Source: Bifidobacterium breve (GTDB lineage Bacteria; Actinomycetota; Acidimicrobiia; Acidimicrobiales; Acidimicrobilacustridaceae). Taken from it: a DNA stretch of 34,321 nucleotides. Shown in pieces: positions 21,215 through 27,522 of this stretch; the first letter of the stretch is position 1; each line of letters opens with the position of its first letter. The stretch covers positions 1-34,321 of the forward strand of contig CAMCTW010000007.1 in assembly GCA_945878645.1 (NCBI GenBank), read 5' to 3'. The notes beneath the pieces are model-generated. The model saw nothing but the letters and a program-made list of their open reading frames with translations, was not told the origin of the DNA and did not search any database. Position numbers and translations under genes: made by a program.

Positions 21215-22399
21215 CTACTTAATCTGATCGATGGCTTGCGCGAAATCGGCCACGAGGTCATCGGCATGTTCGAGCCCAACCGACACACGAATAGTCGAGG
21301 GTTCGATCCCTGCAGCCGCGAGTTCCTCAGGGCTCAACGCCACATGCGTGGTTGATGCAGGGTGCGTCACAAGCGTTTCCGGGCCACCCAACGAGGTCGC
21401 TAACTGCGCAATGCATACCGCTTCGACAAACGTTCGGCCCTCATCGAGTCCACCTTCGAGTTCAAAGGCCAACTGCCCACCCGGCAGATCGAGTTGACGC
21501 TGCGCCAGTTCATATTGCGGATGCGATGGAAGGCCGGGCCAACGAACGGTCTTTACTTTTGGGTGCGATTCAAGGAACTCGGCCAACACGCCCGCATTTT
21601 TGCTTTGACGCTCAAGCCGCACGCCCAAGGTTCGCAGTCCACGCAACGCGTTCATGGCATCGAACGGTGACGCGACCGCACCTTGAATCACTGCATAGGA
21701 GTAGAGCCAATCGATGTACTCGGCCGATCCAGCAACAACGCCGATTGTTGCGTCGTTATGCCCCGCGATTCCCTTCGTGGCCGAATGCACCACAAGGTCA
21801 ATGCCGAACTCAAGCGGACGTTGAGCAAGAGGGGTCGCAAAGGTCGAATCGACAACCTTGATGGGCCCCTTGATGGCACCAAGTTCGGCAAGATCAACAA
21901 GGTCGAGCCTCGGGTTGGCTGGTGTCTCGGCGTAGATCATGGTGGTACGCCCAGGAATCACCGCAGCAGCGAACGCACCGGGTTCCGTGCCATCGACAAA
22001 CGTGACATCGATACCGAAACGCAGGCACACCGCCTGAAACAGGAGTTGCGTTGCTCCATAAAGCTGGTTCTGCGTGACGATGTGATCACCGGTCGAGCAC
22101 AGTCCCAACACCACCGCGCTGATTGCACCCATCCCCGAAGCAAAGGCGCGGGCCTTTTCCGCGCCCTCGAGTTGGGCGATTGCATCCTCAAAGCCAGCAA
22201 CTGTGGGGTTGCCGTAACGGCCGTAGAACCGCGAAGAGCCAACGCCAGTCGCCATCTCGCGAGCTTCGGCGACGGTGGGCGTCACGAATGTGGTGGTCGC
22301 CCAAAGAATCGGAGCGAGCGCGGTGTCGTTATCGGCACGACCAGCACGAATAGCGCGAGTCTCAGGATGAAGTTCGGAGTTGTCGTGATTGTTCGTCAT
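21215..22399 (-). CDS. Cys/Met metabolism PLP enzyme (MetB/MetZ-type)
   Basis: A 394-residue gamma-elimination/replacement enzyme of the trans-sulfuration family. The PLP-binding Lys209 is in VVHSATKGIAGHND; the phosphate-binding YGRYGNPT is near 59-66, and ASGMGAISA near 88-96. This family includes cystathionine gamma-synthase, O-acetylhomoserine or O-succinylhomoserine sulfhydrylase and cystathionine lyases. The coding region overlaps the metX stop by four bases (ATGA), and MetX makes O-acyl-homoserine, so the enzyme probably uses that product to make cystathionine or homocysteine. Sequence alone does not separate the two. It is covered by the same SAM-riboswitch transcript as metX. Confidence 0.9.
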   Translation of the reverse strand: MTNNHDNSELHPETRAIRAGRADNDTALAPILWATTTFVTPTVAEAREMATGVGSSRFYGRYGNPTVAGFEDAIAQLEGAEKARAFASGMGAISAVVLGLCSTGDHIVTQNQLYGATQLLFQAVCLRFGIDVTFVDGTEPGAFAAAVIPGRTTMIYAETPANPRLDLVDLAELGAIKGPIKVVDSTFATPLAQRPLEFGIDLVVHSATKGIAGHNDATIGVVAGSAEYIDWLYSYAVIQGAVASPFDAMNALRGLRTLGVRLERQSKNAGVLAEFLESHPKVKTVRWPGLPSHPQYELAQRQLDLPGGQLAFELEGGLDEGRTFVEAVCIAQLATSLGGPETLVTHPASTTHVALSPEELAAAGIEPSTIRVSVGLEHADDLVADFAQAIDQIK

Positions 22400-23604
22400 G
22401 AGTTTTTAAGGTTCGTTTCAATCTCAGCGAGGAAAGGTTTCAGCGCGGCACCAACAGCCTGATGTTCGGTGAGGAAACCATCGTGGCCCGCTTTGGAATG
22501 AATGATCTCGTGGCGACTGCTTCCGCCATTACTCACAATCTCATCGTGCAAGAACTGCTGTTGACGCGTCGGATAGAGCCCGTCACTGCTAATGGAAAGC
22601 GTCAGTAGCGGAGCCGAGAGTCGAGCGAGGGCGCGCTGCAACCCACCACGACCGCGACCGACATCGTGGAGATCCATGGCTTTATTGATCACCAAGTAGG
22701 AATTGGCGTCGAATCGGCGAATCAGTTTTTCGGCCTGGTAATCGAGATAGCCCTCAACCGCATAGCGCTGCCACGGGGCAAACCCTCGATCCATCACGTC
22801 TTTTTCGTGACGACCTTGCTTTGCGTCGATTAGTTCTTCGCTCTGATAGGTCAGGGTTGCTTGTTCACGCGCCAAACCAAGCCCAAAGTGCGGGCCTTCG
22901 TTTGGAGCAGCGTCGTAGTAGTCGCCGCCATTCCATTTGGGATCAAGAACGATCGTGCTTCGTTGCACGCTTGATTGACCGATCTGAAATGCGCTTGCCG
23001 CAACACAGCTCGCGAGCGGCGCAAGTGACCGCACGCGATCGGGGTACATGATTCCCCATTCAAGAACTTGCATTCCGCCCATCGATCCACCGATAACCGA
23101 AAACCATTTAGCAATACCGAGTTCATCGGCAACCGCTGCTTGGGTTCGCACAATGTCGCGAATCGTCACGACCGGGAATGACGAACCATACCGACGGCCT
23201 GTATCGGGATCGATTGACGAAGGCCCGGTTGTGCCTTGGCAACCGCCAAGCACGTTCGTGCACACGATGAAGTACTGATTCGTATCGATTGCTCGACCCG
23301 GACCGATCAGCGGATCCCACCAACCATCGGTTGGGTGACCAGGACCACTCGGGCCTGCGGCATGACTGTCACCAGTCAGCGCATGGCAAACGAGAATGGC
23401 ATTCGATGCGTCGGCGTTCAGTTCGCCCCAGGTTTCATAAGCAACAGTCACGCCCTTAAGCGAACCGCCTCCTTCGAGTTGAAACTTTCGGTTGACATCA
23501 AACGCGACGAAGCGCCGCTGACCGACCGGGTCACCGGGTTGCCACGCGCCAGAGGCGGGTAGCGGTTCGACGCTCAGGGGCGCCCGAACATTCACTTCGG
23601 TCAA
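22396..23604 (-). CDS. metX: Homoserine O-acetyltransferase
   Basis: Transfers an acyl group from acetyl-CoA (succinyl-CoA in some members) to homoserine, the first committed step of methionine synthesis. It is an alpha/beta-hydrolase fold of 402 residues. The catalytic triad is visible: Ser174 in GGSMGGMQ, Asp341 in SSDGLYP and His374 in KAGHDGF. NVLGGCQGTTGP (about 118-129) is typical of MetX. The start is a TTG at 23604, supported by GAGGAG five bases upstream. It is the first gene of a metX-metB-glycosylase unit, and a SAM-I/IV-type riboswitch sits 47 bases upstream. Acetyl versus succinyl specificity is not resolved. Confidence 0.95.
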   Translation of the reverse strand: MTEVNVRAPLSVEPLPASGAWQPGDPVGQRRFVAFDVNRKFQLEGGGSLKGVTVAYETWGELNADASNAILVCHALTGDSHAAGPSGPGHPTDGWWDPLIGPGRAIDTNQYFIVCTNVLGGCQGTTGPSSIDPDTGRRYGSSFPVVTIRDIVRTQAAVADELGIAKWFSVIGGSMGGMQVLEWGIMYPDRVRSLAPLASCVAASAFQIGQSSVQRSTIVLDPKWNGGDYYDAAPNEGPHFGLGLAREQATLTYQSEELIDAKQGRHEKDVMDRGFAPWQRYAVEGYLDYQAEKLIRRFDANSYLVINKAMDLHDVGRGRGGLQRALARLSAPLLTLSISSDGLYPTRQQQFLHDEIVSNGGSSRHEIIHSKAGHDGFLTEHQAVGAALKPFLAEIETNLKNS

Positions 23605-23789: not shown

Positions 23790-23966
23790 CTAGGGAGTGC
23801 CTTTGGGGGCCCGGACAGACCGAGGAATCCACCAACTCAAGACCGCTTGCGCCGCATCTGGCTCGAGACCGTAGGCCCCCGTAAGGGTCACAGCGGCTGC
23901 CTCCAGTTCGCCGTCTTGCAACTGTCGAGCTCCTTCGACCCACCGATCACGGTTTCCGAAATCTAG
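23790..23966 (-). pseudogene. C-terminal remnant of a truncated gene
   Basis: A minus-strand frame of 58 codons, open from a stop at 23967-23969 to a TAG at 23790-23792, without an ATG or a ribosome site. The composition is that of host coding DNA (RWVEGARQLQDGELEAAAVT, then YGLEPDAAQAVLSWW). I cannot name the protein. It ends where the lower-GC insert begins, so it looks like the tail of a host gene cut by the insert. Confidence 0.45.
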
Positions 23967-24018
23967 TTACCTAGCTCTGTTGGCATTTCCTTTGACAATC
24001 CAGAAAATGGCTAATCGA

Positions 24019-25260
24019 CTATCTCAACTCAATTCTTGAAAGAACAAAATTTTCGGTCTCCCTATCTTGAAAATAGATCGAACAAGACTTCATGCCTCGG
24101 GTAAGAAGCACCCGATACGTGTGTGCCACCATTCGCGTGAATTCCGATTCCGATTTTGTCGCCGAACGCTTCACTACTCGATCGTGACTGAAAGTTGATT
24201 GGCCCACCCAACCCATACGCGACCGATAGACCAAGTCGTTACCCCAAATCAATCCAACATGATCGAATTCAAAACCCTGCGCTGTGTAAACACATCCAAC
24301 TTGTTCGACACCACCTGAATCAGTCGCCCAGAAATCTGCTTTAGGGATTCCTTTCGCCAATCTCGTGGCGTCGGGTTGAGCATTCCATGGCATTGCCCAG
24401 TCACCTATTTGAACGTCGTCAACAAGAGTTCCGTCATCTTTAGGTTTTGACCAAGGCCAGCAGTATCCCGCAACGAGTCGCGATGATTCACCGCTTGCAA
24501 CACGAGTGCGCATCTCTGCTTCTAACTCCTCAACAGAATCAAGAACGTTGAGGTCAAAAGCATCTGCATCGTTCCAGAGGATTTGAGAGGTTTCTTCGAG
24601 TCCCAGAGTGTTATCCACCCACTGCACATAAGCATCTGATCCATTGCACCGAAATTGAGCCTCAAGTTCATGCTCAACTAGCCGGGCTCCAGCTCGACGC
24701 GCTGCGTCACGAATCAGGCCAGTTGAACCAACTTCACCCGGCCGAACGACCTGCTTGTCATCGATAAAAAACGCCGTGACTTTTGCAGCATGAATGAGCT
24801 CATCAATTTGAGGCTTTTCACTTCGCTTCGCAGCCGGCGTAAATCGCGTGTTCGAATTCAATCGAATCCGGTGGGCTTCATCCGCGACGATTAGGTCAAT
24901 TAGATTTTCGTCTGCTTGGGCGTAGTTATTGAAATACCTGAAAAGGTTCTTGGCTCGCGACCCCACCGTCTTCTGCATGGTTTTCGTGAACGCTCGAGAC
25001 CCAGTCGCGTGTTCGACCACCAGACCTTGGCGCGCGAGTTCACCCATCAAATTTACCGCAATCAAGCTCTTCCCAGTTCCAGGACCTCCGCGGATTAAGA
25101 AGACTGTCTTTTGATTACCTAGTTGGTGAGCGCGAACTTTCGCGATGATGTCGTTGCAAGTCACACGTTGCTCATCCAACAAGGTGAATGACGGCTCTCC
25201 GTCAATTACCCCCGCCACATGTGTCAACAAACCTGAACTCGGTTTGTACTGTCCGGCCAA
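24019..25260 (-). CDS. DUF2075 nuclease-helicase, C-terminal (helicase) part
   Basis: This 413-residue frame is the SF1-like ATPase part of a DUF2075 (COG3410) protein. Walker A is GGPGTGKS (58-65), the Walker B/DEAH box is IVADEAH (124-130), followed by IDDKQVVRPGE (sensor-like), EAQFRCNGSDAY, YTAQGFEFDHVGLIWGND and RVLLTRGMKSCSIYF (motif VI). The first residues MAGQYKPSSGLLTHVAGVIDG are normally internal in this family, directly after the nuclease part. The TTG at 25260 is therefore not a true start: the frame continues upstream to the G9 tract at 25287-25295, where it meets the nuclease part in another frame. The full protein would be about 625 residues if the frame were restored. A defence role is inferred from the architecture. 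Confidence 0.85.
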   Translation of the reverse strand: MAGQYKPSSGLLTHVAGVIDGEPSFTLLDEQRVTCNDIIAKVRAHQLGNQKTVFLIRGGPGTGKSLIAVNLMGELARQGLVVEHATGSRAFTKTMQKTVGSRAKNLFRYFNNYAQADENLIDLIVADEAHRIRLNSNTRFTPAAKRSEKPQIDELIHAAKVTAFFIDDKQVVRPGEVGSTGLIRDAARRAGARLVEHELEAQFRCNGSDAYVQWVDNTLGLEETSQILWNDADAFDLNVLDSVEELEAEMRTRVASGESSRLVAGYCWPWSKPKDDGTLVDDVQIGDWAMPWNAQPDATRLAKGIPKADFWATDSGGVEQVGCVYTAQGFEFDHVGLIWGNDLVYRSRMGWVGQSTFSHDRVVKRSATKSESEFTRMVAHTYRVLLTRGMKSCSIYFQDRETENFVLSRIELR

Positions 25261-25268
25261 AATCGTTT

Positions 25269-25895
25269 CTAAAACTGATGCACCATCCCCCCCCCGACGT
25301 TCAAAACTAGGTATCGAGCTAACTCTTCGACCCCATCCGAGACGTAAGACGGCACCGCTTCAATCAGAGAATCGAATTTCGAGTCAAAGATTGCATCGGC
25401 ATTTTGGGGGCGAAGATTGTGAAGGTAACCACACGCATTGAGAGCAACGTCTCCGCCTGAAAATGATGTGTGTGTATCCAGCAAATAGCGTTGGTAATCA
25501 GCGGCTTGACGGCTGGGATGTAAGTGCGGACGAACTCGACCACCAATAAAAGTTTCGACACAATCTTCAATATCAGAGGGCGCAACTTCGTCCCACTGTT
25601 TCAATTCCACCACGACTCCGCTTGGTTGCCCGGCGGTATTATTCCCGGAAACCATCACATCTAGCCGTTTTGAAGTGAGCGGCATTTGATACTCGACGAT
25701 GATCCCTTGATCAATCAGATCTGCTATCTGAAGGACCTGAGAGAATCGTGACAGCGAATTCTGCCAAGACCTAACTTCGGAGTCAGAAGGTTTGTGCCGA
25801 TACTGCTCCTTAAAATTCCGAACAAGTTCATCAACAATCCGAGCGTTCGCAGTATCCGCGATAAAGGTCGTGGACATCCCTGAATACAGATGCAT
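25269..25895 (-). CDS. DUF2075 nuclease-helicase, N-terminal (nuclease) part
   Basis: This frame encodes the PD-(D/E)xK-like nuclease part: Asp79 in KRLDVMVSG and Glu97-x-Lys99 in VVVELKQW. It starts MHLYSGMSTTFIADT at 25895, the usual beginning of this family (an in-frame TTG at 25997 is less likely). It ends just after the G9 run with GGGMVHQF and a TAG, eight bases before the helicase frame. Family members carry the nuclease and helicase in one chain, so this is one gene split by a frameshift. Seven or ten G instead of nine would restore one frame. The lower GC (47-48% in two hand-counted lines, against well over 60% in a sampled metX line) and the absence of a TAnnnT box at the normal distance point to recent acquisition. 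Confidence 0.85.
   Translation of the reverse strand: MHLYSGMSTTFIADTANARIVDELVRNFKEQYRHKPSDSEVRSWQNSLSRFSQVLQIADLIDQGIIVEYQMPLTSKRLDVMVSGNNTAGQPSGVVVELKQWDEVAPSDIEDCVETFIGGRVRPHLHPSRQAADYQRYLLDTHTSFSGGDVALNACGYLHNLRPQNADAIFDSKFDSLIEAVPSYVSDGVEELARYLVLNVGGGMVHQF
25287..25295. repeat. Homopolymer run of nine G/C inside the DUF2075 gene
   Basis: Nine C on the plus strand (nine G in the coding direction) lie exactly where the nuclease and helicase frames part. Slippage by one base up or two down would fuse them. Confidence 0.97.
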
Positions 25896-26018
25896 AGAAA
25901 CCAGTTCCGCCGATCTACCTAAGTCAGTTGTTGCAAACCAATCAAGATTCCGTTGACAAACAGCACTTTTGCAACTCGAAATGACAAGTGTAGACAACTA
26001 ACTCGATTCTCTTGCTTC

Positions 26019-26147
26019 TCAAATACAAGAGAAGTTTCGCGGAAGAATTCGACCCTGAATCCCTTTGATCTCGGGCCAAAGATTTACAACATCTATCGCA
26101 TCGGCCGTTCCCACAAAGGCACGGTCCACTAGTTCGTCGGCAACGGC
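26019..26147 (-). pseudogene. Possible coding remnant at the right edge of the insert
   Basis: A 42-codon minus-strand frame, ADELVDRAFVGTADAIDVVN and following, is open between stops at 26148-26150 and 26019-26021. The first part looks like real protein, but its family is unknown and no clear start exists. It may be a broken host gene or a remnant brought in with the insert. Confidence 0.25.
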
Positions 26148-26230
26148 TCAAGGCGTGTAGTGCACACCATCACGCCGACGGCGACTCGGCTCAAGCGAGG
26201 TTTCGTAGTCCCGACCGGGATCGGACACGT

Positions 26231-27400
26231 TCAGCCAACTGCAGAATCAGTGCGCGGATCCCACGCAGCGAGATCGGCGAGGCGCTTATCGTTCGAAAAC
26301 ACCTCGACGATGGGCTGGTTGAGTTTCAAACGTTTCAACAAACGCTTGACCTCAAGTTCTTCGTTCCACATGACGAGTGTGGCCACGACTCCATTGGCTC
26401 CGGCGCGCGCTGTACGACCGGAACGGTGGAGATAGGCCTTTGAATCTTCCGGTGGGTCGTAGTGGATGACGACATCGACCTCATCGACATGAATACCGCG
26501 AGCGGCAACGTCGGTGGCAACAAGTGCTTTCAATTTTCCGTCGCTGAAATCTTTCAGTGCCTTCTCGCGCTGACTCTGGCGCAGATCGCCGTGGATTGAT
26601 GCGGCGTCGACACCCTCGCGTCGAAGATTCTCGGCCACCCGATCGGCAGCGCGCTTGGTGCGCACGAAAATGATGGTGCGGTTTGAATTGTGAATGATGG
26701 TCGCGGCGACCTTCACTTTGTCCATATCGTGCACCTGCAAGAAACGGTGCTGCATCTGCTCGACAGTGACCTGTTCGGAAACAACCTCGTGCATCGCCGG
26801 ATCGGTTTGATAGCGCTTGATGAGCGTGTCGACGACACCATCGAGGGTTGCAGAGAACAACAGCGTCTGATGCTGACCAGGAACATGGCGAAGGATCCAC
26901 TCGACCTGGGGGAGGAATCCCATATCGGCCATGCGGTCGGCTTCATCGATCACAACTTGAGCGATGTCGTCGAGGAATATTTCCTTGCGCTCGATCATGT
27001 CGATCATGCGACCCGGAGTGGCCACGACGATCTCGACACCCTTTTCGAGTTCCGCAACCTGTGTTTCCATTTTCGCTCCGCCGTAAATGGCGGTAACGGT
27101 GACATCGCGAACCTCGCCGAGTGGCGCGAGTTCGTCGCGCACCTGCGTGGCGAGTTCACGAGTGGGAACCAGAATCAAAGCGAGAGGGCGTCGGGCTTGT
27201 GCGCCCTTCACCTTTTCGAGCAACGGGAGACCGAACGCGAGCGTCTTGCCCGAACCAGTCTTGGCCTTTCCGCACACATCGCGGCCGGCAAGTGCATCGG
27301 CAATGGTGAGTTCTTGCACTGCGAATGGCGACATGATGCCGCGTGACTCGAGGGCGGCGGTGAGATCGGGCGAAACGCCCAGATCGGCAAATGTAGGCAT
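26231..27400 (-). CDS. DEAD-box RNA helicase
   Basis: A 389-residue ATP-dependent RNA helicase of the RhlE/CsdA type, expected in RNA folding, ribosome assembly or decay. Both RecA domains are complete: Q motif FAVQELT, Walker A AKTGSGKT (46-53), PTRELA, ATPGRM, DEAD (152-155), SAT (183-185), then ATDVAARGIHVDEVD and HRSGRTARAG (325-334). The basic C-terminal tail common in CsdA is absent, so it is the short form. The ATG at 27400 has GGAAAG upstream and starts the family domain MPTFADLGVSPDL; ATG 27415 is an alternative. The gene stands between the lipoprotein gene and the DUF2075 insert; no shared role is evident. Confidence 0.93.
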   Translation of the reverse strand: MPTFADLGVSPDLTAALESRGIMSPFAVQELTIADALAGRDVCGKAKTGSGKTLAFGLPLLEKVKGAQARRPLALILVPTRELATQVRDELAPLGEVRDVTVTAIYGGAKMETQVAELEKGVEIVVATPGRMIDMIERKEIFLDDIAQVVIDEADRMADMGFLPQVEWILRHVPGQHQTLLFSATLDGVVDTLIKRYQTDPAMHEVVSEQVTVEQMQHRFLQVHDMDKVKVAATIIHNSNRTIIFVRTKRAADRVAENLRREGVDAASIHGDLRQSQREKALKDFSDGKLKALVATDVAARGIHVDEVDVVIHYDPPEDSKAYLHRSGRTARAGANGVVATLVMWNEELEVKRLLKRLKLNQPIVEVFSNDKRLADLAAWDPRTDSAVG

Positions 27401-27522
27401 TGGTTGGCTTTCCATGAGGGGGTGCGACACCCCACTGGATGCCACCGGACGACCGACGGTCGTCCCAACGCTGATAATCCTACCGTTCACTACCGCAATG
27501 ACCCATTCGGGACAAGCTGGGC

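Follow-up and report, generated by a model that had tools for sequence, protein, structure and literature searches.

Does a run of nine G between the two halves of a nuclease-helicase gene form a switch for a putative defence enzyme, or was the gene broken by accident in a single genome? The run lies on the minus strand of the window, i.e. the whole stretch of 34,321 nucleotides that was analysed. An earlier note had read the locus as one gene split into a nuclease and a helicase part exactly at this run, and the reading of the frames bore this out, coordinates and motifs included. The run comprises exactly nine G at 25287-25295; this length is known from a single draft assembly of 172 contigs that is 83% complete. 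The N-terminal frame (25269-25895, minus strand, 208 aa) begins with ATG at 25893-25895, and its start MHLYSG is kept in close relatives. It carries the PD-(D/E)XK-like nuclease with RxD79 and E97-L-K99 and ends in GGGMVHQF and the stop codon TAG (25269-25271) just past the run. The C-terminal frame (24019-25260, minus strand) encodes the SLFN-g3/DUF2075 helicase with intact GGPGTGKS and DEAH motifs; it ends at 24019-24021, and the nearest start is a TTG at 25258-25260. From stop to stop the helicase frame has 446 codons and extends without a stop past the G run, upstream to about 25359. Thus, both frames overlap across the run. As the note had also claimed, with nine G the nuclease terminates at GGGMVHQF, while seven or ten G bring the two frames into register. 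The resulting read-through agrees with the linker of the family, V-G-x-G-D-G-x-S-V-L-E-T. The locus therefore has one feature of a phase-variable gene, a coding homopolymer that determines the reading frame by its length.

The family assignment was examined for both parts. The note had suggested a search of the joined protein against DUF2075; the helicase part yielded a full-length match to PF09848 with 295 bits (cut-off 24; profile positions 1-354 of 354). Pfam now lists this family as SLFN-g3_helicase, DUF2075 being the older name. The upstream part had no Pfam match at the Pfam cut-off. The residues D79, E97 and K99 (RxD, ELKQW), which had been singled out as those of the nuclease, were indeed invariant in a five-sequence alignment. 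A structure model of the nuclease part, of low confidence with a pLDDT of 62, predicted the alpha-beta-beta-beta-alpha-beta order of PD-(D/E)XK enzymes, so that RxD, ExK and the order of the core elements point in the same direction, the last of them in a weak model. The best structural matches of this weak model had Z-scores of at most 6.8 and included several restriction enzymes and other PD-(D/E)XK nucleases, among them Kpn2I, BstEII, Can2, Card1, EndoMS and HamA. Foldseek returned nothing significant with the model (best E 0.06), and a sequence search for relatives of solved structure found none. Because the structural matches are weak, the nuclease assignment leans mainly on the motifs. 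The model may represent a family that is missing from the VIA list. The PF09848 nuclease-helicase proteins have the same domain order, a full-length helicase domain and about 620-630 aa in the relatives; those on plasmids are annotated as 'DUF2075 domain-containing protein'. In contrast to these relatives, in which both domains share a single open frame, the frame is broken here between the two domains by the G run. In our view the gene is an unremarkable member of a known family that probably carries a recent slippage lesion.

If the split were a property of the family, relatives should share it. All 24 full-length aligned relatives, which came from the genus, the order and the phylum, had a single frame of about 620-630 aa. 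This confirmed the view that DUF2075 proteins of this kind are normally one protein, and a naturally split family was ruled out for the relatives of the main family. The closest comparison was a copy in a relative of the same genus (L007 = G008:C37) with an open frame of 632 codons and identities of 79% in the nuclease part and 87% in the helicase part. The break maps to a linker that is Gly-rich in close relatives (V/L-G-x-G-x-G). The same-genus copy lacks the nine G at this linker (GGCCGCGGCGACGGT), and its linker reads GTCGGCCGCGGCGACGGT. Among the aligned relatives, G runs in the linker did not exceed five, so that a conserved G tract was ruled out. As far as visible, the nine-G tract is thus confined to this genome. 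Contingency loci keep their tract across strains or species; here it was absent in all relatives examined, so that, private to one lineage, it cannot be called a conserved contingency tract. No further strain of the species with the gene turned up among the 21 genus genomes or in a wider search of genome contigs. Hence no length variation was observable.

The family as such is sporadic, with occurrence in 6 of 61 relatives and in 32 of 396 genomes of the phylum sample. It is also found on plasmids (36 records) and is rare in phage records (4), and a search of viral contigs yielded no relative. Damaged copies exist elsewhere in the family. Genome G188 keeps only the C-terminal part of the nuclease-helicase, and there is a copy on a Marivirga plasmid whose alignment falls into four pieces over a stretch that carries no gene annotation. 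Tandem nuclease-helicase pairs were seen in Nocardia yamanashiensis (L009:2329-6230), within the phylum sample in two genomes that belong to a single genus (L098 and G218:C2:23272-27258) and on a Hymenobacter plasmid (L105:5904-9890).

The age of the break was estimated from the constraint on both parts. Compared with the same-genus copy the nuclease part differed at 36, 14 and 120 first, second and third codon positions, respectively (third positions 120 of 170), with a dN of 0.14. The corresponding values of the helicase part were 49, 25 and 257 (third positions 257 of 331) with a dN of 0.085. dS was saturated in both parts. No further stop codon or other lesion was found in either part. The preponderance of third-position differences and the absence of other stops indicate that coding selection lasted until recently. 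With both parts constrained and otherwise free of lesions, the break is either recent or does not exist in the cells, the latter being a base-count error.

The genomic setting bears on how the gene came to its present place. It sits in an acquired insert of about 2.15 kb (23954-26103), inside of which there was no match to congeners, while the flanks are 88-96% identical to them. Each boundary is fixed to within a few bases, the left one at 23952-23954 and the right one at 26103-26115. The note had described the insert as lower in GC, which was substantiated with 49% versus about 58% in the surroundings; the copy of the same-genus relative is located at a different locus and has 59% GC. Direct or inverted terminal repeats of 9 or more bases were not detected at the ends of the insert, by which mobile-element ends with such repeats were ruled out. 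The insert is bordered by the remains of an N6-adenine DNA methylase gene on the minus strand. Its 5' remnant of about 41 codons (26104-26228) contains an in-frame TGA at 26148-26150, and its 3' remnant (23790-23953) consists of the last approximately 53 codons and the stop. The conserved flanks beyond, likewise on the minus strand, are a DEAD-box RNA helicase gene (26231-27490) and a gene of a MetX-like homoserine O-acetyltransferase, named from its sequence (22396-23604). In 12 of 16 genus genomes examined the interval between the MetX-like and the DEAD-box gene holds an intact N6 DNA methylase of about 500-610 aa (PF02384, 49 bits). Since only the methylase ends remain on either side of the insert, the nuclease-helicase gene replaced the middle of the methylase gene. 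The location of the insert within a gutted N6-adenine methylase remnant is a new observation. Whichever way the G run is interpreted, accessory genes have clearly turned over at this single site, where a nuclease-helicase has taken the place of a methylase that is common in the genus.

By family resemblance the nuclease-helicase is probably an anti-phage or anti-invader gene. Both fragments and the intact relatives matched the PADLOC model PDC-S41 (657 positions) in N- and C-terminal stretches, with no more than 67 bits over three stretches; at such low scores the protein is a distant relative of PDC-S41 and not a clear member. Weak PADLOC matches of 33-48 bits in intact relatives reflect a resemblance of the helicase core to Nhi and AbiO. 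Nhi combines nuclease and helicase in one gene and acts against phages (PMC12904381). Yet, the matches to Nhi and AbiO are confined to some 150 residues of the helicase core, and the N-terminal nuclease is unmatched. The 81 proteins encoded next to the relatives included three C5 methylases, McrBC, GmrSD_N and Uma2, and a copy on a Hymenobacter plasmid adjoins a restriction-modification cluster. The gene in the window is surrounded by housekeeping genes and the methylase remnant. A MazG-like gene (PF12643) adjoins the nuclease-helicase in three relatives (L103:7394-7729, minus; L097:6161-6493, minus; L100:8701-9030, plus), and an annotated nucleotide pyrophosphohydrolase lies near a copy on a Marivirga plasmid (L104:1-611). 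From this arrangement a two-gene unit of the family, MazG-like plus nuclease-helicase, seems possible. The insert of the window has no room for a MazG-like gene. A literature search yielded no paper that joins DUF2075 with phage defence or with MazG.

Mismatch repair bears on the stability of a run of nine G. NucS was present in 19 of the 21 genus genomes and MutS was detected in none of the 21; controls behaved as expected. According to a mycobacterial study NucS-dependent repair corrects substitutions, not frameshifts; frameshifts in runs of 7-9 bases were measured there at 1e-5 to 1e-2 per CFU, and homopolymer frameshifts in glpK of Mycobacterium tuberculosis were proposed as reversible silencing (PMC10159617). 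A survey of Propionibacterium acnes listed 54 variable tracts, nearly all of G/C and some of them intragenic and truncating; tract lengths mostly followed clades, and some were doubtful due to sequencing error (PMC4746626). The G run resembles the glpK C-run and the P. acnes tracts in being a coding G/C homopolymer whose length sets the frame in an actinobacterium with NucS and without MutS found. It differs from them in that no length variation was seen and in its restriction to a single genome. With NucS present and MutS undetected in the genus, an origin by slippage is mechanistically plausible. We infer by analogy that the mycobacterial slip rates carry over to this genus; nine G should then slip easily, and a reversible OFF state is plausible without any selection for switching.

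On balance we favor, at somewhat better than even chances, a recent slippage mutation in a lineage-specific G run, which is possibly reversible and is not an evolved switch. According to this proposal a PD-(D/E)XK nuclease and SLFN-g3 (DUF2075) helicase in a single gene would have arrived by horizontal acquisition and landed in the N6-methylase gene, with loss of the middle of the methylase. Synonymous and near-synonymous changes in the Gly-rich linker may then have created an uninterrupted G run in this lineage, and a one-step slip would have left it out of register. As assembled, the gene is OFF with respect to the complete enzyme: its products would be a nuclease cut short and, at best, a helicase initiated on its own. 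As NucS is present without detectable MutS, such indels are probably uncorrected, and slips back and forth should be frequent. The population may thus be mixed, and switching would be a by-product of the G run and not a conserved device. It is likewise by inference that we take nine G to be the number present in the cells, the gene to be defensive, the run to slip in vivo and the state to be reversible. If the nine G are real, the locus would be a worked example of an acquired defence gene silenced at an accidental homopolymer, in principle reversibly, in an organism without standard mismatch repair. Homopolymer silencing would then extend from mycobacteria to an environmental, uncultured actinobacterial genus.

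A miscounted nine-base G run is a standard artefact, and the gene may be intact in the cell with a wrong number of G in the draft. The genome is a draft in 172 contigs, both halves look fully constrained without another lesion, the in-register junction exactly fits the family linker, and such tracts needed Sanger checks in P. acnes (PMC4746626). On the other hand, the long frames of conserved genes on the same 34-kb contig (for example those of 758, 602, 520 and 422 aa) show no sign of a frame break, and runs of this kind are expected to slip genuinely where a genome lacks MutS. A base-count error is for us the second most likely reading, at clearly less than even odds; in that case the locus would be an ordinary intact accessory gene.

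The note had gone further and proposed an ON/OFF phase-variable locus. For selection to keep the run as a contingency tract of a costly nuclease speak its position in the nuclease gene exactly at the frame break, the genus without detectable MutS and the reversible homopolymer silencing proposed for glpK (PMC10159617). When tract length was looked at in related genomes, as the note had advised, no relative had the run. This includes the 79/87% same-genus copy, so the claim found no support. Furthermore, the G9 runs of the genome are below expectation, neither of the other two lies deep within a long coding frame, and no length variation or second strain with the gene was found. An evolved switch is accordingly quite improbable. 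Little more credence is due to a newly arisen but truly switching ON/OFF locus, in which a G run that came up by chance in a glycine linker would now act as a mutational switch of a costly defence enzyme and slippage or recoding would perhaps keep some full protein. Recoding by itself, i.e. RNA polymerase slippage or a -1 ribosomal slip on the G run that produces some full-length protein beside free nuclease, would use the overlap of the frames, as the helicase frame is open across the run, the direction of the shift fits, and a -1 slip on consecutive GGG codons yields the family linker sequence. But there was no stimulatory RNA structure downstream of the run (z = -0.09) and the arrangement is conserved in no relative, which makes recoding very improbable.

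Finally, G9 runs were counted in the genome and in the genus. The genome contains three, while about 12 were expected from the dinucleotide frequencies of the window. Thus a genome rich in G9 tracts was ruled out. Of the three, only the run described here is located well within a gene, where it marks the frame break; the others (G000:C64:12033 and G000:C72:4318) are found between ORFs or at their edges. G9 occurred in 11 of the 21 genus genomes; many of the sites are intergenic or at the edges of ORFs, or fall within what seems to be a tRNA gene. Four congeners (L018, L024, L030 and L032; genomes G012, G013, G011 and G008) share a G9 in the context AGGGCGGA-G9-ATTCGAACCCCCGG, and this context resembles the 3' portion of a tRNA gene. 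Another congener, G014, has a G13 (L020:1508-1520) and a G9 (L023:1461-1469) in near-identical contexts, GTTC-Gn-CTTC.TAGCCGAG; these sites are apparently repeated elements that differ in tract length.
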